A DNA stretch of 41,953 nt from Gemmatimonadota bacterium (GCA_002712305.1 PATE01000005.1:5061-47013), one strand, 5' to 3'; counted from the stretch's first letter, positions 9,370 to 41,953 are shown. The notes: generated from the sequence alone by a model not told the origin. Made by a program: numbers and translations.

Positions 9370-9385
9370 TTCCGCTGCTTCAGGA
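9364..9385. other. Hairpin spanning the convergent stops of argG and the sulfatase gene
   Basis: TCCTGA (9364-9369) and TCAGGA (9380-9385) form a 6-bp stem around a 10-nt loop. The arms include the TGA stop codons of both convergent genes. There is no T tract on either side, so it is at best a weak transcript-end or stabilising hairpin, and the symmetry partly follows from the two TGA stops. Confidence 0.3.
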
Positions 9386-16680: not shown

Positions 16681-16690
16681 CGCAGCTCTC

Positions 16691-20364: not shown

Positions 20365-22164
20365 CTACTCCTCCATCTGCAAGGCAGCGAGGAAGGCTTC
20401 CTGCGGGATCTCCACACTCCCGACCTGCTTCATCCGCTTCTTCCCTTCCTTCTGGCGCTCCAGCAGTTTTCGCTTGCGGGACACATCACCGCCATAACAC
20501 TTGGCAGTCACGTTCTTGCGGAAGGGCTTCACCGTCTCGCGCGAGATGACCTTGTTGCCGATGGCCGCCTGAATCGCCACCTCAAACATCTGACGAGGAA
20601 TCAGTTCCTTCAGCTTGGCACACAGTCGTCGCCCCCAATCAAAGGCTTTGTCTCGATGGATGATGACGGCCAGGGCATCGAGTGGGTCGCCATTGATGAG
20701 GATGTCTAGTCGGACCAATGGCCCCGGGCGCATCTCTTTGTGTTCGTAGTCAAAGGAGGCGTAACCGCGAGACACGGACTTGATGCGATCATAGAAATCC
20801 ACCACAACCTCACCGAGGGGGAGTTCGTAGTGGAGGATCGCACGCTCTCCATCGAGATACTCCGTGTTGAGGTAGACTCCCCGGCGATCGTTGCACACCT
20901 GCATCACATTGCCGATGTATTCGCTGGGCACCAGAACCTGTGCATCAAGGATCGGTTCGCGAATCTGCTGGATCTGCCCTACCGGTGGCAGGCGAGATGG
21001 GTTTTCCACCTGACTGACGTTCCCATCAGTCGCTTCCACTTCGAAACGAACATTCGGCAACGTGGCGATGATGTCCATCTCGTATTCACGATCGAGTCGT
21101 TCCTGCACGATCTCCATATGCAGCAAGCCGAGAAATCCACACCGAAAACCAAAGCCGAGAGCGTCGGAGGTTTCCGGTTCGAACGAGAAGGCCGCGTCGT
21201 TGAGTTTGAGCTTCTCGAGGGCATCGCGAAGTTCGGCATGGGCATCTGAATTCACAGGGTAGAGACCACTGAATACCATGGGCTTCAGCGGTTGGTACCC
21301 CGGAAGCGCTTCGACCTCGGCTCTGCCTGCATGGATGACCGTATCACCGACCCGGGCCTCTGCGAGGTCTTTGATGTTGGCGATGATATACCCCACCTCG
21401 CCACTGTAGAGCTGCTCAGCCGGGACCCGCGTCAGGCGCAGAATGCCAAGCTCCTCGACTTCGTACTCGATCCCGGTCGAGAACAGCTTGATGCGGTCTC
21501 CTCGTCTCAGAGATCCATCGACGAGGCGGATGAAGCAGATCACACCACGATACTGATCGTAGAGCGAATCGAACACGAGACACCGCAGCGCCTGTTCCGA
21601 GTCACCAGACGGAGAGGGAATCCGATCGACGACGGCCTGCATCGTCTCTTCGATACCGATCCCGTCGCGCGCACTGATGCGCAAAATTTCATCGGGGTCA
21701 CAACCGATCAGATCGACCAATTGCTGCTCGACACGCTCCACCTCGGCACCGGGCATGTCGATCTTGTTGATACAGGGGATGATCTCGAGATCATTCCCCA
21801 TAGCCAGCAGCAGATTGCTGACCGTCTGCGCTTCGACACCTTGTGCGGCATCGACAACGAGAATGGCTCCCTCGCAGGCGGCCAAAGACCGGGACACCTC
21901 GTAGGTAAAGTCAACGTGTCCGGGCGTATCGATGAGGTTGAACTGATAGTCGATACCGTCTGCGGCACCGAAGTGCATGCGCACGGCATGGGCCTTGATC
22001 GTGATCCCCCGCTCTCGCTCCAGATCCATGGAGTCGAGAACCTGCGCCTGCATCTGTTTGCCCGTGAGCGTGTGCGTCATCTCCAGCATCCGATCAGCCA
22101 GAGTGGACTTGCCGTGATCGATGTGGGCGATAATGCAGAAGTTGCGGATGCGTTCGCGGTCCAT
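20365..22164 (-). CDS. lepA: Elongation factor 4 (LepA), ribosome-associated GTPase
   Basis: A 599-residue translational GTPase of the EF4 family, the normal length. G1 is AHIDHGKST (about 13-21), G3 is DTPGHVDF, and G4 is [12 protein letters not shown] marks the switch region. Further domains show FCGLYP-like and [13 protein letters not shown] sequences typical of domain III. The C-terminal domain ends with [26 protein letters not shown], the LepA-specific signature. EF4 acts on stalled or back-translocating ribosomes and affects initiation. It is separated from the TPR array by 93 nt and is followed by lepB after 11 nt. Confidence 0.97.
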
Positions 22165-22257: not shown

Positions 22258-24459
22258 TTACGGCGATTGCTCCCGTGCAGAATCGCGTCTTTCGAAAGGT
22301 CTTTTCAAGCGCTCAAGATTGCGTCGGGCCACTGCATTTTCGGGGTCCTGCTGCAAAACAAGCTCCACCTGACTACGGGCGTCGTCTGGGCGTCCAGCGG
22401 CGCCAAGAGCCGCCGAAAGCTGGTTCCTCAACGACACATCCAGAGGCCGCAGATCACAGGCCCTCTGATAGGCCACCACCGCCATCGGCCACTGCTGCAG
22501 AGCCCGATAGGCATCGCCGGATGCGGCCAACAGGTCTGCATCGGAGGGATTCGCCCGCAGAGCACGACGCAGCACCTCTACCGCATCCCCCCATCGTTGT
22601 CGTCTTGCATACTCTGCGGCCCAGGCGACATGAATTGAAATCCTGCTCGGATCCTGGTCTGCCAGCTGGGCATAGGCGTCGAGTGCATCAGTCCCCTGCT
22701 CTTTCAAACGGAGAAAGGCCAGGTTCATTTTCGCTTCCGCGAGAGTACTGTCTGCCTCCAGGGCCTGAACGAGCCACCGTCGGCCGGCCGCGATATCTCC
22801 GCGTTCCATCGAAAGCAGAGCGAGATTGTTCGCGGCCTCCGCGTGCTGCGGATGCAGATGCAGGGCCTGCTCGTAGGCTGCCTGGGCAGCCTGGTTTTGT
22901 CCCATGAGTTGATGCCAGCGACCTCGATAGAGATGGAGATCCGGATCTTCGGCGTTCCACTGGGCCGAGTCCAGTTGGGACGCCGCATTCGTGAGAAGCC
23001 CGTTCTGCAGATAGAAACGAGCCAGTTGGATGCGCCACCCCCCCCACTCTGATGTGCCCGCACGCAGGTAGGCCTGTTCTGCCTGACCCCACTCTCCCTC
23101 TTCCTCGAGCCAGGAGGCATAGTTCGACCACGTTCGCGCCGCGTGCGGTGTGTGCTGCAGGGCTCGCCGATAGGCGTCACCTGCCCGGGCGCGATCGCCC
23201 TGCTGGTGTAGGGCTAATGCGAGATTTGCCAGCACCCGACTCGACGACGGAGCCTTAGTTTCGGCATCAGACCAGAGGGATAATTCACTCTCCCACAATC
23301 TATTACGAGAACTAACTATAACGACCATCACACATAGCGCCACGGTAAACACAACACGCCCACCACGTCGAAGAGGCCTGTGAGAAACCAGCGCCGACAT
23401 CGCGATCAACGCCCCCATCACCGCGAGGTAGAGTCGCTGCTCACTGGCCAACACCGTCAGTGGAACCAGAGTTGTGACGGCCAACGCCAGAAAAAACCAC
23501 ACACCCCCTATTCCAACACCATCTCCTGCACCGTCAAACGAGGCTCGGTCTCGTCGCAGGGCAACCACCGACCAACCGACCAGGCTGAGGAGGAATAGGA
23601 GCGGCAACATGATCGCGAGAGCAACACCCGAAGCCGGCACGATCCCGTGCTCGATACTCAGTGACACGGGCATGGTCATGAGTTTGAGGTAGAGGGTGAT
23701 GACCTTTACCTGTGTGGCCAGTTGAGTCCCAAAAGGCCGAACATCCTGAGCAAGTGACGAGGGAAGGAACCCGTCGACACTGATCACGATCAGATACAGG
23801 GCGCCCACACCCAAAAACGGTGCCCATCGGCGCCACCCGAAGCGCGACTCGATGCCTTTTCCCACAACGACCAGCAGCAAGAGGGGGATGAATTGGAACC
23901 CGATCGATTTGCTCAACAACGCCAGAGCAAACAGAGCCAGGCCAAGCCTATTCCGACCCGACAGGGCCGCCCATAAGGCCCAGACCACACCACATGCGGC
24001 CATCAGCTCTGATCGACTGGAGATGTAGTTCACGGCCTGGGTGTGAATGGGATGCACGGCAAACAGCAGACCCACCGCCAGCGCCGTCGGTCCGGGCACA
24101 AACAGCCTGGCCAGGAAAAACAGGCCGACACAAGCCAAGGCGTGAAAGCCGATGTTGACGAGGTGGTATCCACTCGGCGAGTACTGACCCAGCGCATAGT
24201 TCGCAGCGAGCGTCGTCTGTACGAGAGGGCGATACATACCCTTCCCGGGCTCGGCCGAGAATGTTGAGGAGTCGACGAAGAACGTGGGAATGTTCGCCAG
24301 GTTGCGTAGATGGTGATTCCGCACGATGGCGTGTTCATCGTCGTCGTGGAAGCTGTTGTCCAGTCCATTCAGGTAGGGAAACGACGCGGCAACCAGCACG
24401 AGGAGCCATCTCCAATGTGCGCCGTTGTGCCGATCCATCGATGGTACCAGACACATCAT
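22258..24459 (-). CDS. TMTC-like GT-C/TPR membrane protein, array member A
   Basis: A 733-residue protein, the longest of the array. The ATG at 24459 overlaps the stop of the preceding small paralog by 4 nt; an in-frame ATG at 24438 is an alternative. About ten TMs occupy residues 18-385. The first exported loop carries Asp40-Asp41 in an FHDDDEHAI setting, where most paralogs have a Tyr or Phe before the pair. YRPLVQTT (76-83), SGYHLVNIGFH (96-106), HPIHTQAVNYISSRS (136-150) and VLASEQRLYL (336-345) are the other shared blocks. Residues about 405-720 hold roughly nine TPR units (NNLALLSMERGDIAAG is typical). It is the last member before lepA. Transfer of a sugar from a lipid donor to an exported acceptor is inferred from the fold. 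Confidence 0.87.
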   Translation of the reverse strand: MMCLVPSMDRHNGAHWRWLLVLVAASFPYLNGLDNSFHDDDEHAIVRNHHLRNLANIPTFFVDSSTFSAEPGKGMYRPLVQTTLAANYALGQYSPSGYHLVNIGFHALACVGLFFLARLFVPGPTALAVGLLFAVHPIHTQAVNYISSRSELMAACGVVWALWAALSGRNRLGLALFALALLSKSIGFQFIPLLLLVVVGKGIESRFGWRRWAPFLGVGALYLIVISVDGFLPSSLAQDVRPFGTQLATQVKVITLYLKLMTMPVSLSIEHGIVPASGVALAIMLPLLFLLSLVGWSVVALRRDRASFDGAGDGVGIGGVWFFLALAVTTLVPLTVLASEQRLYLAVMGALIAMSALVSHRPLRRGGRVVFTVALCVMVVIVSSRNRLWESELSLWSDAETKAPSSSRVLANLALALHQQGDRARAGDAYRRALQHTPHAARTWSNYASWLEEEGEWGQAEQAYLRAGTSEWGGWRIQLARFYLQNGLLTNAASQLDSAQWNAEDPDLHLYRGRWHQLMGQNQAAQAAYEQALHLHPQHAEAANNLALLSMERGDIAAGRRWLVQALEADSTLAEAKMNLAFLRLKEQGTDALDAYAQLADQDPSRISIHVAWAAEYARRQRWGDAVEVLRRALRANPSDADLLAASGDAYRALQQWPMAVVAYQRACDLRPLDVSLRNQLSAALGAAGRPDDARSQVELVLQQDPENAVARRNLERLKRPFERRDSAREQSP

Positions 24460-24932
24460 CGGAGGCGATCTTCAAGTTGGGCGATTCGCTGCGCACTGCG
24501 ACGATACGACGTCCCCGCAGTTCGATAGAGATCTTGCGCCCTCACCCAACTCGTCGTTGCCATCTTCGCGTCGCCCTCATCCCACGCGCGCTGGCCGAGC
24601 CCGACCAGAATTTCGGCACGATTGTAGGCCGTCTTCGGTCGACGATCGCCAAGTTGGAGCGCTCGTTCCAACATGGTCGCCGCCTTCTCCATCTGCCCCA
24701 CGCTGCCAAGCAAACCACCACGCTTGGCCCACAGGACTGCATCTGATGAGTCAAGACTCGTCACCCGCTCCATCTGTTCGATGGCTGTCGACAGGTCGTG
24801 CAGATGGGTGTTGCGGACGATGGAGTGGTCATCGTCGAAATGGAATCCATTATCCAAACTCCCCGCGTAAACCAGCATCACGAGAATGAGAATCCCCAGT
24901 CCCTCTGCCCTGCGACGTGAAACGACCATCAA
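24456..24932 (-). CDS. Internal-deletion derivative of a TMTC-like paralog (158 aa)
   Basis: This 158-residue protein keeps the beginning of an array member: TM at about 11-27 and GFHFDDDHSIVRN (29-41) with Asp33-Asp34. At about residue 48 it passes straight into helical TPR sequence (VLWAKRGGLLGSVGQMEKAATMLERAL and a second unit AKMATTSWVRAQDLYR), skipping the roughly 350-400 residues of the GT-C membrane domain that separate these parts in every other paralog. The frame is intact and both ends keep 4-nt ATGA overlaps with neighbours. It cannot be an active GT-C enzyme. It may be a tail-anchored TPR adaptor made from a paralog, or a decaying gene caught while still in frame. The full-length parent cannot be named with confidence. 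Confidence 0.82.
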   Translation of the reverse strand: MMVVSRRRAEGLGILILVMLVYAGSLDNGFHFDDDHSIVRNTHLHDLSTAIEQMERVTSLDSSDAVLWAKRGGLLGSVGQMEKAATMLERALQLGDRRPKTAYNRAEILVGLGQRAWDEGDAKMATTSWVRAQDLYRTAGTSYRRSAQRIAQLEDRLR

Positions 24933-26872
24933 GATCCTCCGGACGTCCTAGCCGAGGTCACGAGTCGCAGAATCTCACGGGCACGGTCCTGTGCAGGGTT
25001 CAGCGTCAGCGATCGCCGTACGAGGTGCTCTGAGTCTCCCAGAAATCTGTTCCGATCGTTCTCTTCTTGCGCCTGTTCAGCCTTGCGCAGGAGCAGTGCG
25101 GCCAGATTGGTCAGCGTTCCATAGTGATGAGGATGCAGAAACAGGGCCTGGCGGTAAGACTGCTCCGCTTCCGTCCAGCGCCCGAGGTCCTGCAACACGA
25201 CGCCAAGATTGCTGTGCCCGAGAAAGTGATTCGGCTCTTCGCGGAGGCCGCGCCTGAAAAAGCCGATAGCCTCTTCGAGCCACGCTTCCCGCTGGGCGGG
25301 ACTCGTCGGCAGCCTCGACTTCTTCACAAAGCAATTGCCAAGATTGATCAGAGCATCCACATAGTGCGGCCCATGTTCGATGGCGCGCCGGAAAGTCTGC
25401 TCTGCCTCTTCCAGGTTCCCGAGGGTCAATTGAATGCCACCGAGATTGTTGTGCGCCCGAAGCCGAATATCGTCATCACTTGGAAATCGGAGCGCGCGCT
25501 CATACGCTCTGGCCGCCTCACGCCACAGAGCGCTTTGCTGGGCCGCATCTTGAGTATGGAGTGCTCGGTCTTTGAAGGCATTGCCGTGAAACAGGTGAGG
25601 CCGCGGCATCTGAGGCGATCGCGCCACAGCCTCCGACCACAACGTACCTTCTTCTGCCCAGACCTGATTGCGCCCGGCACTAAGACCCGCAGCAATCAAC
25701 AGAGTCGCCACGACCAGTGCTCGTAGAGGAAGTGGTGGTGCAAAGCGCATGGCCAGGGCTGGGATACCGATACAGGCCATCGCCATGGGCACATAGGCAC
25801 GACGATCATTCACCAGCACATTCAGGGGCATGACGAGGGTTGGCAACATGTGTAGAAGGCCGATCCCGACAAGGCAAAGGGCAGAGCCATGCCGTCGCTG
25901 CCACATCCACACCAGGGCCACTACGAGAGTCACCGCGAGCAGTCCACCTGCCAGCACCGTCGGATTGGCGACGGCTTGTTCACGAAACTGCGGCTCAACG
26001 CTCAGGTGCGTCGGCATCACGAGCGTATAGAGATAGTGACCGATCGCCTTTGTTTGAGTCAGCAGTTGCCTTGTGTGGTCACGAACAGGTTTTTCCAGCG
26101 AACGCCCGAGGAAGCCATTCGAGATGATCAGAAACAGATACGCTGCAGCGACGCCCCATGCCGGGACCACCCATCGCCAGAAACGCCGGCCCACACGCGA
26201 GATGTCGAATCGGTTGACCATCGCCACATCCAGCAGTAGCAACGCCGCGGGTAGAGTGATCGCCGTCGACTTGGTCAACAAGCCTGCAGCCATGGCCGGC
26301 CAGCATGCCCAATACCATCCTCGCCACACTGAAATGTGCGCCTGCAGAAACAGTGCCATCGTCAACAGATAGAAGAGGGCGGACAGGCTTTCGCTGCGAC
26401 TGCTGATATAGTTGACTGGCTCGCTGCCCAGGGGCCAACTGATGAACAACAGGCTTGCCACCCAGGCAACTTCCCACGATCGCCTTGGCCAGAGCAGCCG
26501 GACCAGCCAGAAGACGAGCAAACCATTGATGGCATGAATCAGAAGGTTGACGATGTGGTACCCGCGTACGTCATACCCGTCGAGACCCACCGCGAGATTC
26601 AGCGCATGGTTCATGGCGAAGCTGGTCACCAGCAGGGGGCGATACATCCCCTTCTTGGCATCCCGGGAGAACGCGGCTGGATCGGTAAAGAAAAGAGCGA
26701 TCCCCTCCACCAGCTCGCTGGCCACCGGCTGCACGCGCACGTGGATATTGAGCTGAATGGAATGCTCGTCATCGTAGTGGAAACTGTTGTCGATACTCCC
26801 CCACCAGATCGCAAAACTTGCCAGTAACAGGCTGCCCACGACGAGCATCCGTTTTCGCAGGGCAGGATCCAC
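24929..26872 (-). CDS. TMTC-like GT-C/TPR membrane protein, array member B
   Basis: A 647-residue paralog. The membrane domain spans about residues 8-400. The acidic pair is Asp34-Asp35 in FHYDDEHSI. It differs from the others in an insertion of about ten residues after that motif (HVRVQPVASELVEGIALFF) and in a longer segment before GYHIVNLLIH (LAVGLDGYDVR). SEPVNYISSRSESL (150-163), TQTKAIGHYLYTLVMP (272-287) and NVLVNDRRAYVP (351-362) are conserved. About five TPRs fill residues 425-635, with AHNNLGGIQLTLGNLEEA and GHSNLGVVLQDLGRWTEA the clearest. Start and stop overlap the neighbours by 1 and 4 nt. Substrate unknown. Confidence 0.88.
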   Translation of the reverse strand: MDPALRKRMLVVGSLLLASFAIWWGSIDNSFHYDDEHSIQLNIHVRVQPVASELVEGIALFFTDPAAFSRDAKKGMYRPLLVTSFAMNHALNLAVGLDGYDVRGYHIVNLLIHAINGLLVFWLVRLLWPRRSWEVAWVASLLFISWPLGSEPVNYISSRSESLSALFYLLTMALFLQAHISVWRGWYWACWPAMAAGLLTKSTAITLPAALLLLDVAMVNRFDISRVGRRFWRWVVPAWGVAAAYLFLIISNGFLGRSLEKPVRDHTRQLLTQTKAIGHYLYTLVMPTHLSVEPQFREQAVANPTVLAGGLLAVTLVVALVWMWQRRHGSALCLVGIGLLHMLPTLVMPLNVLVNDRRAYVPMAMACIGIPALAMRFAPPLPLRALVVATLLIAAGLSAGRNQVWAEEGTLWSEAVARSPQMPRPHLFHGNAFKDRALHTQDAAQQSALWREAARAYERALRFPSDDDIRLRAHNNLGGIQLTLGNLEEAEQTFRRAIEHGPHYVDALINLGNCFVKKSRLPTSPAQREAWLEEAIGFFRRGLREEPNHFLGHSNLGVVLQDLGRWTEAEQSYRQALFLHPHHYGTLTNLAALLLRKAEQAQEENDRNRFLGDSEHLVRRSLTLNPAQDRAREILRLVTSARTSGGS

Positions 26873-28728
26873 TATTCCACTCCCCAGGCGGCCAACGAAT
26901 CGTCGACGGCGCGAACGCCACCCCGGGCGACCGCGTGTCCGCGATCAGCAGCGCCGACGAAGAAGGCCCGAGCCGAACGCAGGTGCCCCACCCGCAGCGT
27001 CACATCGGACGAGAGGCGAGCACGCAGCATCGACAGGCCTGCCAGAAACATCATTACCTGCGGCTCCTCCGGCGCCAACTCCATCGCCGTCCGGTACGAT
27101 CCTTCGGCCTCGTCCAATCGACCCGTCAGTTGCAGCACGGCGCCGCGATTCAGGTGTGCCTCATATCGTCCTGGATGCAAGTCCAGCGCTCGATCGTAGG
27201 CGGCCATGGCGGATGTCAGAGCCGCTTGGCCTTCGCCATCGAGGGCCGCAGCATACCACGCGTTACCGAGATTCACCCATGCATCAGTATACGTGGGTTC
27301 CTGGGCAACGAGCTTGTTGAGAATAGAGCGCGCCTGCAGCGCGTTTCCGCGCGCCGACTCGATGAGGGCCAGCCCATTTGCGGCCTGCGCGGACAACATG
27401 CGCTGTCTTGGCGCCAGAGCGTGAACGTTCTCATAGGCCTGAGCCGCTGCGCTCAGGTGTGCGTGACGCGATCCGGCAGCCGCCGCCAGGTGCGCGTCAC
27501 CGAGATACAGCTGGGCTCTCGGCATCATGGGTGCCGTGGAGACTGCGTCAGACCACAGGGAGATGTCGCTCGCCCAGACTGCAGACCGCTGTACCGTCAT
27601 GATCGCCAAGAGCGTCAGCCCGCAGGCGGCCAGCCCCCGCCGCCAATACGGTCGTCGGACCAGGGTGATGGCCAGAACGATCCCAATGGCCACTGCGGCC
27701 AAGGGCAGATAGAGACGGCGGTCGTTCACCAGAACATTCAAGGGCGCCAGACTGACTGGTACGAGGGTGAAACAGACCCACAACCCCAAAATCCACGGCG
27801 CCCGAATGTTGCGGCGCAGTAAGCCAAAAGCGACGGCACCGAGCGATACGACCAGGGCCAGGCAACCAGCGGTGGTGACGGACACATTCGTAGCCAGGAG
27901 AAAGGCGGGTTCTGGACTCAGGTCGATGGGGATGACGAGGGTCCGCAGATAGTGAGCGAAAGCCTTGCCGAGGGTAAGCCATCGCTCACTCCATGCTGTG
28001 GCTTGCGACGCGAGAGATCGAGGCAGGAATCCATTCGCCCAGATCACGAGCAGATAGAGACAACTCACCCCCACGACCATCGCATTCGCCAGCAGACTCT
28101 GCCTCACAGACCGCACCGGGCCTCGAGCCCACTCCATCAACACCAGCAGGGGCGCGATCGCGATCGCCGTGGCTTTCGTCAGCAGCGCAGCTGCGGCACC
28201 CGGCAGGAGACGGAGGGTTTCACCACGCACGGTGGCGCGCACGCGCTCTGAATGAGCGGCCATGTAGAGGGTCAACAGTAAACAGAAGGCGACGAGGGAA
28301 TCGGATCGAGCACTGACATAGTTGACCGGTTCTGTGGCCACTGGATGGAGGCCGAACAGGAGCCCCGCAACGCCCCCTTCACACGTCGACACCCAGGGTC
28401 GAGCCAGGACGGTCACCAACGCGGCATTTGCCGCATGGATCAACAGATTCACCAGAAGGAAGGACCACGGTTCGTCGCCAAATAGGAAGCGGTTGACGGC
28501 GTAGGTTGTGAGCAGGACAGGTCGATACATCGCCCGTTCGGGGTCGGCGGAGAATGCACCGGGGTCGACGAAATAGGACGGAATCATCGATAGATCTCGA
28601 ATCGATAGATTCCGAACCACGCTGTGATCATCGTCGTAGTGAAAGTCCCCCCTCAGGGCCCCTGCATGCACCAAGACGACGACGACGGCCACGATCGCCC
28701 AGGGGTATCGACTCAGGGTTCGAATCAT
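26872..28728 (-). CDS. TMTC-like GT-C/TPR membrane protein, array member C
   Basis: A 618-residue paralog with the acidic pair Asp32-Asp33 in FHYDDDHSV and MYRPVLLTTYAVN shortly after. It departs from the group in two blocks: the G-Y-H before V-N-L-L-I-H reads S-F-L, and the usual T-Q-V-K-A block reads T-L-G-K-A followed by HYLRTLVIP. EPVNYVSARSDSL and NVLVNDRRLYLPLA are kept. The TPR part (about 415-590) has around five units, including AHLNRGAVLQLTGRLDEAEG, and ends in a less regular helical tail. The start shares a 4-nt overlap with member D and the stop touches member B by 1 nt. Confidence 0.87.
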   Translation of the reverse strand: MIRTLSRYPWAIVAVVVVLVHAGALRGDFHYDDDHSVVRNLSIRDLSMIPSYFVDPGAFSADPERAMYRPVLLTTYAVNRFLFGDEPWSFLLVNLLIHAANAALVTVLARPWVSTCEGGVAGLLFGLHPVATEPVNYVSARSDSLVAFCLLLTLYMAAHSERVRATVRGETLRLLPGAAAALLTKATAIAIAPLLVLMEWARGPVRSVRQSLLANAMVVGVSCLYLLVIWANGFLPRSLASQATAWSERWLTLGKAFAHYLRTLVIPIDLSPEPAFLLATNVSVTTAGCLALVVSLGAVAFGLLRRNIRAPWILGLWVCFTLVPVSLAPLNVLVNDRRLYLPLAAVAIGIVLAITLVRRPYWRRGLAACGLTLLAIMTVQRSAVWASDISLWSDAVSTAPMMPRAQLYLGDAHLAAAAGSRHAHLSAAAQAYENVHALAPRQRMLSAQAANGLALIESARGNALQARSILNKLVAQEPTYTDAWVNLGNAWYAAALDGEGQAALTSAMAAYDRALDLHPGRYEAHLNRGAVLQLTGRLDEAEGSYRTAMELAPEEPQVMMFLAGLSMLRARLSSDVTLRVGHLRSARAFFVGAADRGHAVARGGVRAVDDSLAAWGVE

Positions 28729-30773
28729 CTCTTCGAATCGACCTGGAGGCGACGCCGAGCCTCTTCTGCGTACGTACCCTCCGCCTGTCGCTTCAGGAGA
28801 CGCTCGTATACATCGTGTGCTTCAGCCGTCTGCCCCACCGTCTCCAGTAGATTCCCGAGTTGCAGATAACCAAGAATGAAGCCAGGATGCTTCTCAAGCA
28901 GCGCTTGATTCGGTGTCAGACTATCGGCATAACGTCCCTGGAGGAAACGGCTGACAGCCAGATAGAACAGTGCCTCAGGCGGAGCCCCTCGAAGAGTGGA
29001 GATTTGCTCGCACAGGGTTTCCAACGGGATCAGTTCGCCGGCGTCAATCATGTCGCCGGCATAGACATCCAACTGTGAGGCGAGCCGCCGCAGATTGTCG
29101 CCGGGATCCGGAGAGTCCCCCCCCAGGGCCAGAGCCCTGCTGTAGTACACAGCTGCGCTGTCGACTCTACCCGCCTGCTCAAAAGTTGTACCGAGGTTAT
29201 TCAGTGCCAGGTCGTAGTGATAGCTCGAATCCGCAACAAGCCCATAAGCCGCGTGGGCCGTGCTCAGCAGATCGAGGTATCTCGGATCCTGCGATCCGTA
29301 GGCTTTGGCCAGAGCCTGTGTGGCGTGCCCGAGATTGTACCAGCCTTCCGGCAGGTCGGGATGATCCCGCGTGATCGACGCAAACGTATCGGCTGCGGCG
29401 GCAAGGAGGCCCATCGACTCGAGACTCAGACCCAGATTGTTGCGTGCCGCCACATGATGGGGAGCGATCTCCAGAGCTCGCCCGTAGTACCCGACAGATT
29501 CCTCCAGTGCCCCATGCTCCTTCGCATAGTTGCCAAGATGGACATAAGCGACCGGCACCAGGGGCTGTGGGGATTTGGCTGCCGCATCCGACCACAGGGT
29601 GTACTCGTCCGCCCAAGCGGGATTCCGGTTCTGCGTCAGAATACCCATCACCAGCAGGCCAGCGACAACGACCCCCATCCTGCTTCGAGCAGGCCATCGA
29701 TACGGTGAGCCAGCAGACCAGATGGAAGTCAGGGCGACGAGCAGTCCTGCAATGGGCAGATACAATCGGTGATCGTTCACGAGAATGAAGAGCGGCACCA
29801 GTAGCGTGGGTGACAGGACGATGACGCACCATCCGAAGCCTAGACGCACATCCGCCGCCCCACGTCCTACGACCAGAACCAACGACGCCACGGCGAACCC
29901 CGCGAAGGCGATGACGGACCACAACCCGCCTTCGAAGAACTGATGGTGAACATTCAGCCCCCGTGGAATGACCAGAAGACGCGCGTAATAGACGAGCGCT
30001 TTCACCTGCGTCATCACCTGCGTCGACAGATCTCGAACCGGTGCGTCGACGACAGCCACACTCACATGCCCGTACTGTACGATGAGATACACGAGGGCGA
30101 GCAGTCCGTAGACCACGTGAACGGGGCGGAGACCGTCGGCGAAGTCTCTCAGAGTGAATCGTCGGCGTGTCAGATCATGAGCCACAATCAGGCCCAACGC
30201 AGTGATTCCCGTTTCCTTGCTGAGCATGGCCATGGCATAGCAGAGGAACGAGGCGATCCGCCATGGTCCGATCTGTTGCGACCCTGCCCGGATATGCAGA
30301 ACCACAGCTCCCAATACGAACAGGGCGGACAGGCTCTCCGACCGGGCACTGATGTAGTTCACAGGTTCGGTGGCTAACGGATGCAGACCGAACAGCAGCG
30401 CACCTGCCAGTGCCAGCGACGGCCCTCTGCCCAACTGCCTCAGCAAGACCCACAGCAGCATCGCGCAGGCGGTGTGGATGAGGAGGTTCACGACATGATA
30501 CGAGCCCGTCTCCAGTTCCGACCAGGCGTAGTTAGACGCCAGCGTCACCACGAGCAGGGGGCGGAACATCGCCTTGTCCGCATCGCGAGCGAAGCGCGTC
30601 CGATCCGTGAAGAAACCTATGGGATCTTCCAACGATCGGATGTGGGGATTCTCGGTAATCGTGTGGACATCGTCGTAGTGCCAGCCATTGCCGAAGCTGT
30701 TGGCGTAGGCCAGGAACACGGCAACGATGATGAGTCCCAGCGCCCTCACCGGACGATGCAGTTGAAGGCCCAT
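28725..30773 (-). CDS. TMTC-like GT-C/TPR membrane protein, array member D
   Basis: A 682-residue paralog. The first loop reads WHYDDVHTI with Asp34-Asp35, then FFTDRTRFARDADKAMFRPLLV, where Phe replaces Tyr of the Y-R-P-L block. EPVNYISARSESLSALF, TQVKALVYYARLLVIP and FILVNDHRLYLPIAG are conserved, the last with Ile in place of the first Val. The TPR region (about 415-675) has around seven units and an interruption near residue 590 (DAGELIPLETLCEQIS) that is not TPR-like. This is the only member whose start does not overlap the preceding stop: 2 nt separate it from member E. Confidence 0.87.
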   Translation of the reverse strand: MGLQLHRPVRALGLIIVAVFLAYANSFGNGWHYDDVHTITENPHIRSLEDPIGFFTDRTRFARDADKAMFRPLLVVTLASNYAWSELETGSYHVVNLLIHTACAMLLWVLLRQLGRGPSLALAGALLFGLHPLATEPVNYISARSESLSALFVLGAVVLHIRAGSQQIGPWRIASFLCYAMAMLSKETGITALGLIVAHDLTRRRFTLRDFADGLRPVHVVYGLLALVYLIVQYGHVSVAVVDAPVRDLSTQVMTQVKALVYYARLLVIPRGLNVHHQFFEGGLWSVIAFAGFAVASLVLVVGRGAADVRLGFGWCVIVLSPTLLVPLFILVNDHRLYLPIAGLLVALTSIWSAGSPYRWPARSRMGVVVAGLLVMGILTQNRNPAWADEYTLWSDAAAKSPQPLVPVAYVHLGNYAKEHGALEESVGYYGRALEIAPHHVAARNNLGLSLESMGLLAAAADTFASITRDHPDLPEGWYNLGHATQALAKAYGSQDPRYLDLLSTAHAAYGLVADSSYHYDLALNNLGTTFEQAGRVDSAAVYYSRALALGGDSPDPGDNLRRLASQLDVYAGDMIDAGELIPLETLCEQISTLRGAPPEALFYLAVSRFLQGRYADSLTPNQALLEKHPGFILGYLQLGNLLETVGQTAEAHDVYERLLKRQAEGTYAEEARRRLQVDSKR

Positions 30774-30775
30774 CT

Positions 30776-34701: not shown

Positions 34702-36527
34702 CAGGGAGTCGGCTCCCATCCGAGGCCACGCGCACGGGCAATCGCCTGGGCCGCTTCCTCATCTTGCCCCAACCTCTGCAGCGTGAGGCTCAGGTTGAGC
34801 CAGGCACGGACATACTCGGGATCCTGCGCCAGCACGCGTCGATACTGCTCGACGGCGTCCTCCAACTGGCCCAGCATAAGCAGAACGTTGCCGTAGTTCA
34901 GTCGCGATTCGACGCGGTCGGGTTTCAGGGCGATGGCGCGTTCGTGATGGGCGACCGCCTCCGCAGGCCGACCCAACGTCTGGTACGTATTCCCGAGGTT
35001 GTCGTGCAGATCAGCGTCTTCGGGTGAGAGTTCGAGGGCGCGCAAATACGCCTTCGCACTGGCTTCGAAGGCCCGCTTGCGCAGACCGTCCCTTGCACGA
35101 AGGGCGATCACGTTCTCCACCTGCGCCAACTGGATCCACGTCCGGGCCGAATCAGCCCGGACCCGCGTGGCGGTTTGAGCGACCTGGCTGGCGCGCTCGA
35201 TCTGGCCGAGGTCCAGGTGGGCGTTACTCAACGAGACATACGCCGGAACGAAGGTAGAATCTCTCTGCAGAGCAGCTGACATCGCCCGAATTGTAGCCGC
35301 ACGATCGCCCCGTCGCTCGGCCTCGAAACCGAGCATGATCAAGGGCCGAGCCATCCCCGGCCCTTTCGTGGCGGCATCCTGCCACAGACTCTGCGCGGAT
35401 GCCCACGCCTCACCTCGCTGGGAAGCCAGAACCGCCAGAATTGGAATGATCCATAGCAGGCCGCGGCGTGCCCGGACATCTGACCGTACGAGAGATCCGA
35501 TGCCGAACAGCGCCGCGGCGGCTGCAAGATAGAGCCGGTGTTCGTTGACCAGAACATTCAGGGGCACCAGCGAAGCTGGTGCCAGGGCCGCAAGGAACCA
35601 AGCGCCCAGGAACAGGGCCCAACCATTCCTGGTCACAATGGCGATTCCTGCAAGACTCAGAACCAGAGCCGTGGACATGGCCGCGTAGGGGTCGATGAGG
35701 CTGTCTGAGATCAAGAACTGATGATCCACACTGAGGCCGCGAGGCACCACCAGCAGTTGTACGTAGTAGGCAAGAGCCTTGACCTGCGTCCACCATTGCT
35801 CCGAATAGGATCTCACAGGTGTCGACAGAGTTGCCTCGACAATTATCGCCCTCGACTGCATCACGTAGAGGATCGCGACGCCAGCGTAGGCTGCATGTAG
35901 CCGCCACCGTCTACGCCAGTCCCCTCTCTTGATGAGCAGATCATGGGCCAACAGCAGCGGCAGCAGAGCGATCGCCGACGATTTGGCCATCAGACCCGCT
36001 GCGAAGCTGACGACACCCAGTGTGTCTGACCAGCCCCTCCTCTCGCCCAAATGGAGGCACATCGCAACCAGCACCGCCAGGGCAGCCAGGCTCTCAGAAC
36101 GACTACTCACATAGCAGACAGTTTCAGAATGAATCGGATGAACAGCGAACAACCACGCTGCCAGCCACGCGAGAGACGCCGAGCCGAGCAGCATTCTCGC
36201 CAAGACCCCGACGGCGACGCTTGTGAGAAAGTGAAGCACCATGTTGGCGAGATGGTAACTCCACGGATCCTGACCGGACACAGCGTAATTGAAGGCGTAG
36301 CTGGTCAATACGAGAGGTCGATACATCGTCAGCGACGCATCGACGGAAAACATGGAGGCGTCCAGGAAAAAGGACGGTACATTTGCCAAAGATCGAACGT
36401 GTGGATTCTGGACGATGCTGTGGCCATCATCGAACTGAAATGGAAAGGACAGACTCTGACCGTAGATCGCCATCAGAACAACGGCCAATCCGATGCAGTG
36501 CGTTCGCAGATCTGGCGACCATCTCAT
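34701..36527 (-). CDS. TMTC-like GT-C/TPR membrane protein, array member G
   Basis: A 608-residue paralog. The acidic pair is Asp33-Asp34 in FQFDDGHSI; G and F share the F-Q-x-D-D-G-H-S-I variant, which suggests they are sister copies. MYRPLVLTSYAFNYAVSGQDPWSYHLANMVLH follows. The membrane block HPIHSETVCYVSSRSESLAAL differs from the other members in having T-V-C-Y for P-V-N-Y. TQVKALAYYVQLLVVP and NVLVNEHRLYLAAA are conserved. Five to six TPRs fill about 400-595, including ADLHDNLGNTYQTLGRPAEA and SRLNYGNVLLMLGQLEDA. It overlaps member H by 4 nt. Confidence 0.88.
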   Translation of the reverse strand: MRWSPDLRTHCIGLAVVLMAIYGQSLSFPFQFDDGHSIVQNPHVRSLANVPSFFLDASMFSVDASLTMYRPLVLTSYAFNYAVSGQDPWSYHLANMVLHFLTSVAVGVLARMLLGSASLAWLAAWLFAVHPIHSETVCYVSSRSESLAALAVLVAMCLHLGERRGWSDTLGVVSFAAGLMAKSSAIALLPLLLAHDLLIKRGDWRRRWRLHAAYAGVAILYVMQSRAIIVEATLSTPVRSYSEQWWTQVKALAYYVQLLVVPRGLSVDHQFLISDSLIDPYAAMSTALVLSLAGIAIVTRNGWALFLGAWFLAALAPASLVPLNVLVNEHRLYLAAAAALFGIGSLVRSDVRARRGLLWIIPILAVLASQRGEAWASAQSLWQDAATKGPGMARPLIMLGFEAERRGDRAATIRAMSAALQRDSTFVPAYVSLSNAHLDLGQIERASQVAQTATRVRADSARTWIQLAQVENVIALRARDGLRKRAFEASAKAYLRALELSPEDADLHDNLGNTYQTLGRPAEAVAHHERAIALKPDRVESRLNYGNVLLMLGQLEDAVEQYRRVLAQDPEYVRAWLNLSLTLQRLGQDEEAAQAIARARGLGWEPTP

Positions 36528-38368
36528 TCGACGGATGCTCCCTGCATGGTGCGCAGTTGCTTTCGGATCCGCTCCAGATGAGAGGGGTCGCCCTTGTACG
36601 TCTCCAGGAACCGCTCGTAGGCCTGCCGTGCCTGTTGGAGTTCACCCTCCTGACGCAGCAGGTTCCCGAGATTCAGCCACGCCGGCGCATAGGACTGGTC
36701 ATTACCGACGGCCTGACGAAGCAGGTCCAGCGCCCGGACAGTCTGACCGAGCATCTCGTAGGCGCCACTCAGATTGTAGAGCATGCGCACCGACTCCGGC
36801 CGTCGACGCAGGCCCTGCTCGAGCGCAGCTCGTGCCGCATCGGCCTCTCCACGCTTCAGATGCAGCGTGCCAAGATTGTTCCACCCCTCGTGATGGTCGG
36901 GAGCAATGCGCGTGGCACGCTCGTACAGCGCCAGCGCCTTTTCTTGATCTCCCTGCTGCACATGTAGTGAGGCGAGGTTGATCAGCGCTTCGGGATAGGA
37001 GGGCAGGATCCCGAGAGATGCTTCATAGAGGTGTTGGGCCTCTGCCGTATCCCCTTGCTGTCTACGCACATTGCCGAGATTGTTGAGAGCCGGTGCGTGG
37101 CTGGGCACACGCGAGAGAGCAGCTCGCAGATGCTGCTCAGCACGCACGAGATCGCCCTGCTGCCGATGATGGACGCCGAGTCTCACGTGCGCCCTTACGC
37201 TGCCATGGCGCGCCGCCTCCGTCCAGACCGATTCCTCCGACGCCCAGGCCTGATTGCGGCCGAAACTGAGTATGCAAAACAAGGCGAGGCCGACGATGAT
37301 CAGAGGTCGGGACCTCCCCCAGGGCCATGACGCGGCAGCCACGCCGGCAAGGAGAGCGACACCCGCCAGCACGGGATAGAGTCGGTGCTCGCTGACCAGC
37401 ACATTCAGCGGGACCACCATCGTCGGTAGCAGCGCCAGCAGCGGCCATGCAAGCAGATACGCCCACGGCCGCAACCCCACTGACCGGGTCATCAGCCACA
37501 GGGCACTGGCCAGCAAACCGCACGAGGACACAACAACTGCTTCTTTCCACGACGAACTGGCATCGAAGGCATGCTCGATGGTCAGTCCCACCGGAACCAA
37601 CAGCAGCTTCAGGTAATAGGAGATGGCCTTCACCTGCGTCAGCAGCTGCGTACTCTGATCGCGTAGAGGAGATGTGAATAGAGCCTCATCCCATAGATGC
37701 CGGACAACGAAAACGTAGAGTGCCGCCATCGCAGCCAGCGGTGCCCACTGTCGCCACGAGGTGGCCAGACGTCCCTTGGACCACTCGAAGAGCAGGATGA
37801 CCGGAAGAGCCAGCATGCCCGTCGCCTTGCACCCAAGACTCGCGGCGAACAGACCCACCGATGCCGCGCTCCAGGCAGAACGATCTCGCGCGGCGAGATA
37901 TACGAAGATGCAGCCAAGACCAAACAGGAGGGCCATGGATTCGGAGCGACTGCTGACATAGTTGACGGGTTCCGCCACCACCGGATGCAGGCCGAATAGA
38001 AGGGCTGCGACCCATTGAGCCTGGCGATCTCGCGTCAGATGCCAGGCAAGAAGCCCGACCAGGACGGTGCAACTCAGGTGAATGAGCAGGTTGAATGCGT
38101 GCCAACCCAGCGAATCGATACCACCCAAAACGAAGTTCACCACGTAGCTGACCATTACGACGGGCCGATACATCCCACTACCCGGATTGCGCGAGAACAC
38201 ACCTGGGTCTGTAGCGATTCTGACCCAGTCTACAGGCGGTCGGATGTTCGGATTGGCCGTGATGGAATGCTCATCATCGAAGTGAAACGGATGGCTCACA
38301 GAACCGATGAAGACGGCACCCACGATCAGCACTACACCCAGCGAGGTTGATCGCACCCACGCACTCAC
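36524..38368 (-). CDS. TMTC-like GT-C/TPR membrane protein, array member H
   Basis: A 614-residue paralog. The acidic pair is Asp31-Asp32 in FHFDDEHSI, followed by a short loop with DPGVFSRNPGSGMYRPVVMVSY. SLGWHAFNLLIH replaces the usual G-Y-H-x-V-N. AEPVNYVSSRSESMALLFGL, TQVKAISYYLKLLLVP and NVLVSEHRLYPVLA are kept. Six TPRs at about 400-600 are regular (ALNNLGNVRRQQGDTAEAQ, GWNNLGTLHLKRGEADAARA, AWLNLGNLLRQEGELQQARQ). Its start overlaps the stop of the embedded glycosyltransferase gene by 4 nt, so translation of H probably depends on that gene. Confidence 0.88.
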   Translation of the reverse strand: MSAWVRSTSLGVVLIVGAVFIGSVSHPFHFDDEHSITANPNIRPPVDWVRIATDPGVFSRNPGSGMYRPVVMVSYVVNFVLGGIDSLGWHAFNLLIHLSCTVLVGLLAWHLTRDRQAQWVAALLFGLHPVVAEPVNYVSSRSESMALLFGLGCIFVYLAARDRSAWSAASVGLFAASLGCKATGMLALPVILLFEWSKGRLATSWRQWAPLAAMAALYVFVVRHLWDEALFTSPLRDQSTQLLTQVKAISYYLKLLLVPVGLTIEHAFDASSSWKEAVVVSSCGLLASALWLMTRSVGLRPWAYLLAWPLLALLPTMVVPLNVLVSEHRLYPVLAGVALLAGVAAASWPWGRSRPLIIVGLALFCILSFGRNQAWASEESVWTEAARHGSVRAHVRLGVHHRQQGDLVRAEQHLRAALSRVPSHAPALNNLGNVRRQQGDTAEAQHLYEASLGILPSYPEALINLASLHVQQGDQEKALALYERATRIAPDHHEGWNNLGTLHLKRGEADAARAALEQGLRRRPESVRMLYNLSGAYEMLGQTVRALDLLRQAVGNDQSYAPAWLNLGNLLRQEGELQQARQAYERFLETYKGDPSHLERIRKQLRTMQGASVE

Positions 38369-39540
38369 AGCGACTGAATCCTTCGAGACAGCGACAGAAA
38401 ATGCTCACGCGCGGCATGACGTGGACGGGCGTCCATCACACGTGCCTGCGCCCTTTGTCTCTGCGATGGATCTGTGACCCGCGCCAGCATCTGCGCCAAC
38501 CCCCCGATGTCACCACATTCGGTGACCCAGCCCAGACTCTCCCTCTCGATCAGACGCTGTGCGGAGCCTTGAGGCAGACTTGCCAGTACGGGACGTCCGT
38601 AAGCGACATAGTCATAGAGCTTTCCAGGTACAGCGTAGGCATACCTCTCTGAAGACAGAGACAAAAAGGCAACATCGGAAGCCAGAAGCCGATCACCTAC
38701 GTCCTGCGCCGGTAGATAACCACCGTAGGTCACACCCGCGGGCAGCTCACCGGACAGGGTTGCACGGCGATGGGGTGTGTCGGGACCATAGATGGCGATT
38801 TCGAGTTGGTTCGCTTTCTCGGGGTCGTCACGTCGCAGACGTTCTGCGGCCCGCACCAGCACATCGACGCCCTGAGCGCCGGAGATGGCGCCAATGTAGA
38901 CGATGCGAGTTGTCTTCCCGGGCTCGTAGGCGGGAATCGTATCAGGAGCTTCCCAGTATCCGTTCTCTGTAAGATGGAGACGGGATCGGTCGAGTCCGGT
39001 TGCGGCGAAGTCGTCGCCAATAGCCTCCGTTGCAACCGACACCAGATCTGCGCGCGCCAACAATCGCTTCTGCCACTTAGCTGCGAGTCGGCGTCGGACC
39101 CCTAGGGTGAGCCCCAGATACTCGTCGCGAAAGTCGAGAACGAGTCTCGCTCCGGTCTGCTCGGCGACCCGCATCGCCACGATCTGATTGGTCACCGGTG
39201 GATAGATCCCACACACCACATCTGCCGGCCCCGTCGCGATTTCGGCTGCAACCCGCACAGCGGGTCGCACCCAGTTCACATAGGGACAGGCGACGACTCC
39301 AGATCTGGATAGCAGTTCTCCCGTCAGATACCATGGAATGGCCTTAGCACGTCTTACGGGCGGCCCATCGGCCGGCAGCGTCCCCGGATCCTCGACGAAG
39401 GTCCCCAGCGCCGTGGACATATTACCGTGGGCAACGACGGTGACATCGCAGCCCCCTTCCTGCAGCAGATGGGCGAACTGGTAACGCCGATAGGTTCGAG
39501 AGATAGGCGGATACTGACAGGAAACGAAACAGACCTTCAT
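38365..39540 (-). CDS. GT-B glycosyltransferase, GT4-like, embedded in the array
   Basis: A 391-residue cytosolic glycosyltransferase without a signal peptide or TPRs. It begins MKVCFVSCQYPPISRTYRR, the typical GT4 nucleotide-sugar enzyme N-terminus with a Y-P-P loop. Half-way, RIVYIGAISGAQGVDVLVRAA opens the second Rossmann domain, and AYAVPGKLYDYVAYGRPVLA (about 320-340) is the donor-binding motif, with Asp where many GT4 members have Glu. The ATG at 39540 overlaps member I by 4 nt, and a longer open frame upstream inside that gene is unlikely. Its place inside the array, with overlaps at both ends, implies a shared pathway: it may assemble the glycan or lipid-linked sugar used by the GT-C proteins. 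Donor and acceptor are unknown. Confidence 0.88.
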   Translation of the reverse strand: MKVCFVSCQYPPISRTYRRYQFAHLLQEGGCDVTVVAHGNMSTALGTFVEDPGTLPADGPPVRRAKAIPWYLTGELLSRSGVVACPYVNWVRPAVRVAAEIATGPADVVCGIYPPVTNQIVAMRVAEQTGARLVLDFRDEYLGLTLGVRRRLAAKWQKRLLARADLVSVATEAIGDDFAATGLDRSRLHLTENGYWEAPDTIPAYEPGKTTRIVYIGAISGAQGVDVLVRAAERLRRDDPEKANQLEIAIYGPDTPHRRATLSGELPAGVTYGGYLPAQDVGDRLLASDVAFLSLSSERYAYAVPGKLYDYVAYGRPVLASLPQGSAQRLIERESLGWVTECGDIGGLAQMLARVTDPSQRQRAQARVMDARPRHAAREHFLSLSRRIQSL

Positions 39541-41300
39541 CTTGCACCACCGTCCGCCAGACTGACCACACGCTTCCTGGCAAACTCGACGAAGCGAGTG
39601 TACTCGTCTCCGCCCTGTAGATGCTGGATGGTCTGACGATACGCATCGATCGCCTGAGATGGCCTGTCCAGACGATCTGCGATTCGGGCGAGATTGTACC
39701 ATGCTCCACCGACGGGATCGTCCGTATGAATCCAGAACTCATCGTCTTGCACGGCCCGCTCGTATTCAGCCAGGGCTTCCTCATCCTGCCCCCGTGCCTC
39801 CAGCGCCTGGCCGAGATTGTTTCGCGCCTCGGCGAAACGCGGATTCAGTTCAAGGGTTCGCCGAAAGGCGCGGATGGCGTCGTCAACGCGACCTTCTGCG
39901 TAGGCGAGATTTCCGAGATTGTGATGCACACCCTCCATCGTCGGCTGGATCTGTGCCGCCCGTTCATAGGCTGAGCGAGCCGTGTCCCACTCCCCCAGGT
40001 CCTTGGCCATGTCTCCAGCGATGACCCAGCCTTCGGCAAACTCGGGATCGAGGCGGAGTCCCTCGCGCAGGTGCCGGCGCGCACTATCGGCCCGGCCGGC
40101 TCGTCGCAGGGCCAGTGACAGATTCACTTGCGCACGGGCGGAGGTCTGATTCTTCTCGACGGCATCTGACCACAAGCCGATTCCACTTGCCCAGACCTGG
40201 TTGCGCTGCATCGTCAGCACCACGAGACAAACCAGAAGACTTATGCCGATATAGCTGGCCTGTGACCGTCGACGTTCGTAGAGCCGGTGCCACGCCCAAC
40301 CAGCCAGCAGCATCCCTCCCGCCATCGCCAGATAGGCCCTTCGCTCGGCAACCAGAACGTTCAGAGGTAGAAACACATACGGCAGTATGGCGACGCCGTA
40401 CCAGATCGCGGCGAGCCCGGGTACGGAGAGCCGATGCCGCCAGCTCAACCCCACCGCCGACAGAACCACGGTGATGGCCATGATTACGGCAGGATCGGTG
40501 GCGGCGCCCACGGAGAACGGGTGGTCAACACTCAAACGGATGGGAGACGCAAAGAGCCATACGTAGTAGACGAGTCCCTTGACCTGGGTCCAGATCTCCT
40601 GCGTCGGTGCCCGAGGAAACACCTCTGCAGAGTGGCTGAGGAATCTCGTCGACCAGAGCATGGCAAGGTATCCAATACTCAACAAGACAACGGCACCTGC
40701 CATGAACTTGCTCTTGGTGGCGGTGACGGCACCGCCCCAGCCACGGAGCATCACGAACATCGGCCCCAGCGTAATCGCCACGGATTTCACCATCAGCGAC
40801 GCGGCATAACCGATCCCCACGGCGTGGCTGCGTCCCTTTAGGGCGCAGATGCAACAGACCACGAAGAGCAGCGCCATCAGAGAGTCGGAGCGTGCACTGA
40901 TGTAGTTGACGACTTCTCCGTGCAGCGGATGGACGAGGAAGATCAGCGAGATCACCGTCGCTGCCAGCGTGGACCGCAGCAGCAGATAACTCAGCACCCC
41001 GAAGGCCGCAGCAGCGGCAATGTGGATGGCCAGATTCCCCACACGGAAGGCGGTCGCATTCTGTCCCCACAGTGCATAGTCGCTGGCGAACGTGGTCAGC
41101 AGCAGTGGCCGATACATGAATCCGCGTGTCTGGCCTGAGAACGTGGATGGATCGACGTAGAACGTGGGGATCCACGACAGGGATCGAATGTGCGGGTTGT
41201 ATTGCACCGAGTGCAGGTCGTCATAGTGAAAGGGCCCTCCCAAGCTGTTGCTGAAACTGAGCCCACCAATGACCACCAGAAGGAGAAGGCGCCCCCTCAC
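39537..41300 (-). CDS. TMTC-like GT-C/TPR membrane protein, array member I
   Basis: A 587-residue paralog, the shortest complete member. The acidic pair is Asp27-Asp28 in FHYDDLHSV. FMYRPLLLTTFASDYALWGQ follows, and the G-Y-H-x-V-N block reads A-F-R-V-G-N-L-A-I-H. HPLHGEVVNYISARSDSL, TQVKGLVYYVWLFASP and NVLVAERRAYLAMAG are present. About five TPRs at 385-560 include HHNLGNLAYAEGRVDDAIRA and ARNNLGQALEARGQDEEALA. The start overlaps the partial member J by 4 nt and the stop overlaps the GT4-like gene by 4 nt. Confidence 0.88.
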   Translation of the reverse strand: MRGRLLLLVVIGGLSFSNSLGGPFHYDDLHSVQYNPHIRSLSWIPTFYVDPSTFSGQTRGFMYRPLLLTTFASDYALWGQNATAFRVGNLAIHIAAAAAFGVLSYLLLRSTLAATVISLIFLVHPLHGEVVNYISARSDSLMALLFVVCCICALKGRSHAVGIGYAASLMVKSVAITLGPMFVMLRGWGGAVTATKSKFMAGAVVLLSIGYLAMLWSTRFLSHSAEVFPRAPTQEIWTQVKGLVYYVWLFASPIRLSVDHPFSVGAATDPAVIMAITVVLSAVGLSWRHRLSVPGLAAIWYGVAILPYVFLPLNVLVAERRAYLAMAGGMLLAGWAWHRLYERRRSQASYIGISLLVCLVVLTMQRNQVWASGIGLWSDAVEKNQTSARAQVNLSLALRRAGRADSARRHLREGLRLDPEFAEGWVIAGDMAKDLGEWDTARSAYERAAQIQPTMEGVHHNLGNLAYAEGRVDDAIRAFRRTLELNPRFAEARNNLGQALEARGQDEEALAEYERAVQDDEFWIHTDDPVGGAWYNLARIADRLDRPSQAIDAYRQTIQHLQGGDEYTRFVEFARKRVVSLADGGAR

Positions 41301-41953
41301 TTCGTGCCACCTCCGGATGCCCTTCTGTATTCGATCGACTTGGATTCGATCGCCGCCAGACGTTCCAGAGCTCTTTCAGACGCCTGATTCGACGTGCTGA
41401 GCATTTGATAGATGCGCGCCGCCTCAGCCCACTGCTCCAGACGCTCATGGGCGCCGGCCAGGGCCATCCAGGTTCCGGTGTCGTTCTCGATGCCCACCGA
41501 ATGACTCAGATGCTGAATCGCGGCGTGCACATCTCCGGCGACCAGGGACGCAAGCCCGGCTCGTCGAGATGCGGCGGCAGTCTCTGCCCCTGTGGAACTC
41601 TTCTGTAATGCTCTGATGCCCTGCAGCGACTCAAGAGCAGGGCCGTACGTGGGATCGATACGCAGCGCTTGCTCGAAGGCCTGCCCCGCTTCGTCAAAGG
41701 CACCCATCGCCAAGAGGGTCGCCCCGCGGTTGTTGTGCAACACGAGTTGATCGGCGGCACTTAACTGCCGTGGGTTGACGGTCAGTGCTGCGGCATATCG
41801 TTCCAGGGCCAGACCGTGCTGCCCGGCCACAAAATGGGCGTCACCGACGAACAGATGAGGCCGCGGCATGAGGGGGCCGCGATCCAGCGCATCCTGCCAG
41901 AGCCGTGTCGAGTCTGCCCACGTCGCTGTGCGTTGAAAGGACAGCAGGATCAG
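41297..41953 (-). CDS. TMTC-like GT-C/TPR membrane protein, array member J (5' end outside window)
   Basis: Only the last 218 codons are inside the window; the frame is open to the right edge, so the gene starts beyond it. The visible part begins in the final TM and shared block SFQRTATWADSTRLWQDAL, matching Q-R-N-Q-V-W-A-S-E-x-S-L-W-S-D-A of the others, and continues with PRPHLFVGDAHF, as in members B and C. About five TPR-like units follow, the clearest being VLHNNRGATLLAMGAFDEAG and GLASLVAGDVHAAIQHL. The acidic pair and membrane domain cannot be checked. An ATG at 41869 inside the frame is not a real start because homologous sequence continues upstream of it. Confidence 0.85.
   Translation of the reverse strand: MILLSFQRTATWADSTRLWQDALDRGPLMPRPHLFVGDAHFVAGQHGLALERYAAALTVNPRQLSAADQLVLHNNRGATLLAMGAFDEAGQAFEQALRIDPTYGPALESLQGIRALQKSSTGAETAAASRRAGLASLVAGDVHAAIQHLSHSVGIENDTGTWMALAGAHERLEQWAEAARIYQMLSTSNQASERALERLAAIESKSIEYRRASGGGTK

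Follow-up and report, generated by a model that had tools for sequence, protein, structure and literature searches.

A 41,953-nucleotide stretch of DNA from a Gemmatimonadota bacterium (GCA_002712305.1 PATE01000005.1:5061-47013; the whole stretch is called the window below) carries, from position 22,258 to its end, a row of genes for TMTC-like membrane proteins, in which an N-terminal domain of the glycosyltransferase C (GT-C) type is joined to C-terminal tetratricopeptide repeats (TPRs). The members are called T11 to T1 in the order of transcription. The reading that we favour, with confidence somewhat above even, is that they form a set of about nine periplasmic GT-C/TPR transferases which is old and fixed, its members having separate tasks in a single pathway for a surface glycan or glycoprotein; the copies probably build or attach a sugar coat of the cell surface. 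The host is an uncultured bacterium of the Latescibacterota/Gemmatimonadota type, whose genome (4.77 Mb in 146 contigs, 91% complete) has the window on contig C26. By label, its closest named relatives are metagenome-assembled genomes of Gemmatimonadetes, Candidatus Latescibacterota or Handelsmanbacteria; SI074_bin69 is the nearest (64% identity in the membrane domain).

Orthology by array position

In a profile search of 40 relatives, arrays were found in several genera of the family, with up to 34 TMTC-like copies per genome. In trees of the membrane domains the copies clustered by array position, not by genome: nine positions formed cross-genus clades, and these recurred in one order in other genera. 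For the full set of 97 rows a quick tree was used, as the careful tree was unfinished; the careful tree of 28 rows, representing three arrays, was finished. In the latter, G007 and G008, which belong to two genera, paired at 9/9 positions with identical order, and T11, T10, T8, T5, T3 and T1 of the window joined the G007/G008 pair of their own position. Forcing the copies of G007 or those of the window into one clade was rejected by the approximately unbiased (AU) test (p 7e-40 and 3e-4, respectively), and tree and test together reject an independent, or a recent lineage-specific, expansion of the array.

When outgroups and proteins matching Pfam family PF08409 were added, the array copies and those of a second type of cluster (on contig C42, see below) made up one clade with a support of 99, outside which the homologues from other phyla branched. 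Since the two kinds of copies form one clade, the tree places their duplication within the lineage, before the genera split. Other genera keep both the gene order and the position-specific orthologue groups, which supports the view, derived from sequence comparison, that the copies differ in role and have long been in separate jobs. The slot between positions 2 and 3 is occupied by a GT4 gene in G000, G001 and G003 and by an AsnB-like gene in G004, G007, G008 and G017.

Bacterial genes of the same architecture are known as single genes (PMC7801869). No account of such conserved nine-position arrays was found in a search of open-licence papers, in which the arrangement appears to be undescribed. 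A Myxococcota-labelled genome contains five consecutive TMTC-like genes (L074:1929-12106); the five group together in the tree, which suggests an independent origin of this second array.

Catalytic residues, fold and family

Conservation was scored across the clade in 72 full-length membrane domains, with residues numbered after T6. D29, D30, N37, R66, P67, Y137, R141, K178, R323 and Y325 were invariant in 72/72, among them the acidic pair and residues of the conserved blocks to which the earlier note had drawn attention. In an analysis of the TMTC proteins the Asp pair, the Lys of external loop (EL) 3 and the Arg/Tyr of EL5 were assigned to contacts with the acceptor or metal and with the donor phosphate (PMC7801869), and equivalents of the Asp pair, the Lys and the Arg recur across GT-C enzymes (PMC6801728). 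Of the seven TMTC motifs (M1-M7; PMC7801869), M1 is kept in the array, and YRP of M2, the Lys of M4 and the Arg/Tyr of M7 are found as variants: SHKSYRP has become M-[YF]-R-P, ERxxY has become E-x-R-x-Y, and KE is often KS or KA. In most array copies other residues replace the metal Glu in M4 and the Trp in M5, DW being mostly [DE]-H; M3 and M6 were compared only roughly. Because the catalytic residues are conserved in every complete copy, the copies are probably active enzymes, as had been proposed.

The full-length AlphaFold model of T6 had a predicted local distance difference test (pLDDT) score of 96 and contained the TPR helices. As Foldseek searches with this model were swamped by TPR proteins, the membrane domain was folded (pLDDT 95.1) and searched separately. 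When it was compared with the PDB by VIA-align, the best 50 entries were all GT-C enzymes, with Z up to 19.6; at the top were AglB (3waj, Z 19.6), ArnT (5f15, Z 19.6 over 331 residues, root mean square deviation 4.6) and Pmt4 (Z 19.4), and yeast and human oligosaccharyltransferase (OST) and ALG12 were also among the matches. The Foldseek E-values of the membrane domain were weak (best 0.01), and the membrane-domain alignment, used as a profile against PDB sequences, gave no matches; the assignment is made because the list of matches is consistent, not because of the Foldseek E-values. The loop signature described for GT-C enzymes (PMC6801728) is present, with an acidic motif in the first external loop, a Lys in EL3 and an Arg before the last helices. 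According to the models the array proteins adopt the GT-C fold, in agreement with the earlier note. ArnT (GT83), PMT (GT39) and OST/PglB/AglB (GT66), which have polyprenyl-linked donors and known substrates, share the fold with the array proteins (VIA Z 16-19.6) at about 10% identity, and lack a TPR domain. The mycobacterial Emb/Aft arabinosyltransferases match the fold less closely (Z 11-15); they too are without TPRs, have fewer paralogues and belong to a different family.

Significant TPR matches to Pfam were obtained with 9/9 complete copies of the window. PF08409 (TMTC_DUF1736), searched at its curated cut-off, did not match any copy or any protein of the host genome. Control genomes were also blank in this search, which was consequently repeated across the phylum: in about 35-37/60 genomes other proteins passed the cut-off, and the array did not. 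Fourteen open reading frames (ORFs) at PF08409-positive places in relatives matched the hidden Markov model of the array with E-values of 1.9e-45 to 9.4e-67, over model positions 3-397, i.e. the whole membrane domain. Since the array copies stay below the cut-off, yet PF08409-positive proteins match the array profile, the array proteins are classified from their sequences as relatives of the TMTC proteins and, by the curated test, not as members of GT105/PF08409. The likeness to GT105 pointed out before therefore holds as homology and not as membership.

TMTC1-4 (CAZy family GT105, Pfam family PF08409) are animal O-mannosyltransferases of cadherins. They resemble the array proteins in the order of the two domains, the Asp pair in EL1, YRP, the Lys in EL3, an acidic residue in EL4 and the Arg/Tyr in EL5, and the bacterial PF08409-positive proteins form a bridge between the two groups. 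Apart from the motif changes and the missed cut-off, the array differs from them in being arranged as a bacterial operon array. The single-copy bacterial GT-C/TPR proteins, such as AMJ42_05695 of Deltaproteobacteria DG_8 (PMC7801869), have the architecture of the array proteins and occur in many phyla with one or a few per genome, but not in a nine-position array.

Layout of the array and its surroundings

All genes of the array lie on the minus strand, with transcription running T11, T10, a GT4-type gene, T9, T8, T7, T6, T5, T4, T3, the relic T2r and T1, followed by lepA. The first gene, T11 (array position 1), runs from 41297 to about 43069, so that only its C-terminal part (41297..41953) is in the window; in full it encodes 590 aa (L002:2357-4129, contig C26 46357-48129). 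T10 (39537..41300, 587 aa) is position 2. It is followed by a GT4-type (GT-B) glycosyltransferase gene that does not belong to the family (~38365..39543); its ORF opens at 39702, but translation probably starts near 39543 (MKVCFVS...). T9 (36524..38368, 614 aa) is position 3 by order, T8 (34701..36527, 608 aa) is position 4, and T7 (32635..34719, 694 aa) and T6 (30776..32638, 620 aa), which group together, are physical positions 5 and 6. T5 (28725..30773, 682 aa) is position 7; T4 (26872..28728, 618 aa) is an extra copy otherwise present only in G001 of the same genus; T3 (24929..26872, 647 aa) is position 8, and T1 (22258..24459, 733 aa), the last transcribed, is position 9. The membrane domains are 30-45% identical to each other (mean 35%).

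T2r (24456..24932, 158 aa) has lost most of the membrane domain by an internal in-frame deletion, so that the first transmembrane helix and the loop with the Asp pair are fused to the TPR tail. The sister genome G001 has no T2r at the equivalent spot. The start and stop codons of T2r still overlap those of its neighbours, and it could be a short expressed protein. Thus, of the eleven head-to-tail copies reported in the earlier note, ten are complete (nine of them inside the window) and one is a relic, and the row is broken once, by the GT4-type gene. Between adjacent genes of the array there is either an overlap of 1-19 nt, in most cases 4, or a gap of 2 nt, which suggests, as had been assumed, that the array is one operon.

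The array is followed after 93 nt by lepA (EF4; 20365..22164), its fixed downstream neighbour in other genera. Further downstream, and likewise conserved alongside the array, are genes for signal peptidase I (S26; 19691..20353), a HemW-like radical SAM protein (18519..19745), a Wza-like polysaccharide export protein with Poly_export and SLBB domains (16691..18364) and a Wzz-like chain-length determinant (15496..16722), all on the minus strand. The genes upstream of the array are genome-specific and of the surface-polysaccharide type: here a methyltransferase, a CapA-like, an AsnB-like and a deacetylase gene, in other genomes genes for another glycosyltransferase, a (sugar) aminotransferase or a sugar-amidotransferase-like protein, several of these names having been assigned by reading the sequences and not by search. 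GT4 genes also belong to this variable set. The locus thus has the features of a Wza/Wzz-linked polysaccharide locus, with adjacent Poly_export and Wzz genes and genes for sugar biosynthesis and transfer. Elsewhere in the window, outside the array (9380-10909), an arylsulfatase-family gene adjoins a DHDPS-family gene and an alanine racemase gene.

Among the 40 genomes, seven genomes of genus g7 that lack the array are also without a close lepA-linked Wzz orthologue, and the array-bearing g7 genomes have Wzz. This joint absence is suggestive. In G011 the array is present and the contig ends before the Wzz site. In G018 and G023 the locus has lepA and hemW but no array, Poly_export or Wzz gene; at the usual site of the array just upstream of lepA, G018 (L156) has a 2253-aa ORF and G023 (L160) a long ORF at the corresponding site.

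The genome contains six more TMTC-like genes outside the array. Three are on contig C42, where the contig end truncates one of them; C39, C83 and C33 carry one apiece. On C42 the cluster (L023, 8115-16048) consists of genes for a cyclic nucleotide monophosphate (cNMP)-binding-like protein, a cysteine synthase, a JAMM-type peptidase and a TMTC-like protein, continued by a small ThiS/MoaD-like ORF, a TMTC-like gene, a cysteine synthase gene and a TMTC-like gene (names from reading the sequences). This order, mixing genes of the CysO/CysM/JAMM type with GT-C/TPR genes, recurs in G001, G007, G008 and G013. The 880-aa copy on C39 (L024:5017-7599) adjoins a gene for a flippase-like membrane protein, and similar long single copies are found in other genomes.

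A genus-wide residue change and the possible roles of the copies

In genus g4, Glu follows the invariant Lys at 7/9 array positions (27/37 copies); the g4 copies without it are those of positions 1 and 4 and of the second cluster, the C42-type cluster of the same genomes keeping Ser. In g7 and g3 the residue is Ser or Ala (24/24 and 6/6 copies). Under a strict scoring rule, which required the residue to be fixed in both genera, this column comprised 6 positions, the next most extreme column 3 and most columns 1; as the column had been noticed before the rule was written, the result is descriptive, and no formal test is attached to it. A change that runs lineage-wide through most positions suggests a donor, metal or partner common to most array members. 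Record names raised the question whether the Glu reflects freshwater as opposed to saline habitat; such a cause is not claimed, habitat being confounded with genus and the second cluster being unswitched.

Taking these observations together with the conserved order, we favour, as stated above, a fixed set of transferases with separate tasks in one pathway. Each enzyme would sit in the inner membrane and take one sugar from a polyprenyl-phosphate sugar, the Lys and the Arg binding the donor phosphate and the Asp pair activating the acceptor; the sugar would be transferred on the periplasmic face to an acceptor picked by the enzyme's own TPR domain and loops. The members would probably use the same type of donor in a single pathway, which would make the surface glycan or glycoprotein of the Wza/Wzz-linked locus and in which each enzyme would be responsible for one linkage or one attachment site. 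The earlier note had envisaged a split in acceptor or donor specificity. Separate roles agree with the old position-specific orthologue groups, whereas a shared donor or partner fits better than a split donor because the change next to the Lys is seen in 7/9 positions. The combinatorial system proposed there is not borne out; with its conserved order and one-to-one orthologues, the array bears more resemblance to a fixed set.

Several observations weigh against the favoured reading. Most copies outside g4 lack the Glu that binds the metal in the TMTC model, and T9, T7 and T6 are weakly placed in the trees. As to the link with the polysaccharide genes, G015 lacks the array and yet has the Wzz gene, the joint absence in seven g7 genomes may go back to a single loss event, and the variable upstream genes may mark the boundary of the locus instead of belonging to one pathway. 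Finally, PF04138 (GtrA/DPMS) gave no match in the 91%-complete genome, which speaks against this family as the donor-synthase partner, and no polyprenyl-phosphate-sugar synthase was identified.

In the most likely alternative the array would be a protein O-glycosylation set, each enzyme modifying a different class of exported proteins recognized by its TPR domain. Human TMTC1-4, POMT and TMEM260 divide protein classes among themselves in this way, and in the TMTC relatives, which have proteins as acceptors, the TPRs are in the lumen of the endoplasmic reticulum (PMC7801869, PMC11292533). Every array position keeps its own TPR-bearing orthologue, as would be expected for such a set. The locus, in contrast, contains polysaccharide export and sugar genes and not obvious acceptor proteins, and TPR scaffolds occur in exopolysaccharide export machines too. 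We regard this explanation as a serious one that is nevertheless probably not correct.

Alternatively, the nine enzymes could act one after the other on a single lipid-linked or exported glycan, each forming one linkage. In mycobacteria several GT-C paralogues, the Emb/Aft enzymes, act on one envelope glycan, and these or ALG3/9/12, acting in turn, are the model for such a periplasmic assembly line. The linkage to Wza/Wzz and the joint absence in g7, the fixed set and order, and the lineage-wide Glu/Ser change, which fits a shared donor, speak for it. On the other hand, gene order is not necessarily reaction order, TPR domains are unusual in glycan-acting GT-C enzymes, and a repeat unit with at least nine linkages would be long. 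Sequential action is rather doubtful. Equally tentative is a further reading, in which nine paralogous GT-C/TPR enzymes of fixed order would make up a dedicated extracytoplasmic assembly line for a defined envelope glycan or glycoprotein, with one linkage or site each and a shared adaptation of the donor site in most of them.

Gene conversion instead of selection could have spread the genus-wide Glu, as the paralogues are tandem neighbours and T6 and T7 may have exchanged sequence. This is improbable and was not supported: the codons flanking the Glu differ among the g4 positions, and the identity between paralogues in this region is unexceptional (rank 125 and 151 of 372 windows). It is very improbable that tandem duplication left mostly redundant copies, maintained by dosage or drift and without division of labour, because the decay of T2r and the turnover seen in T4 and T2r are set against nine position-specific orthologues across genera with invariant catalytic residues and paralogues that are only 30-45% identical.

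In animals a few TMTC paralogues share the work of O-mannosylation, and the way in which they choose their acceptors is not settled. The nine position-specific orthologues kept across genera amount to a natural mutation series for recognition by TPRs and exported loops, and the same series could show which residues set the use of donor and metal. For the organisms themselves, the array suggests that members of an uncultured phylum make an envelope glycan that is elaborate and as yet undescribed.

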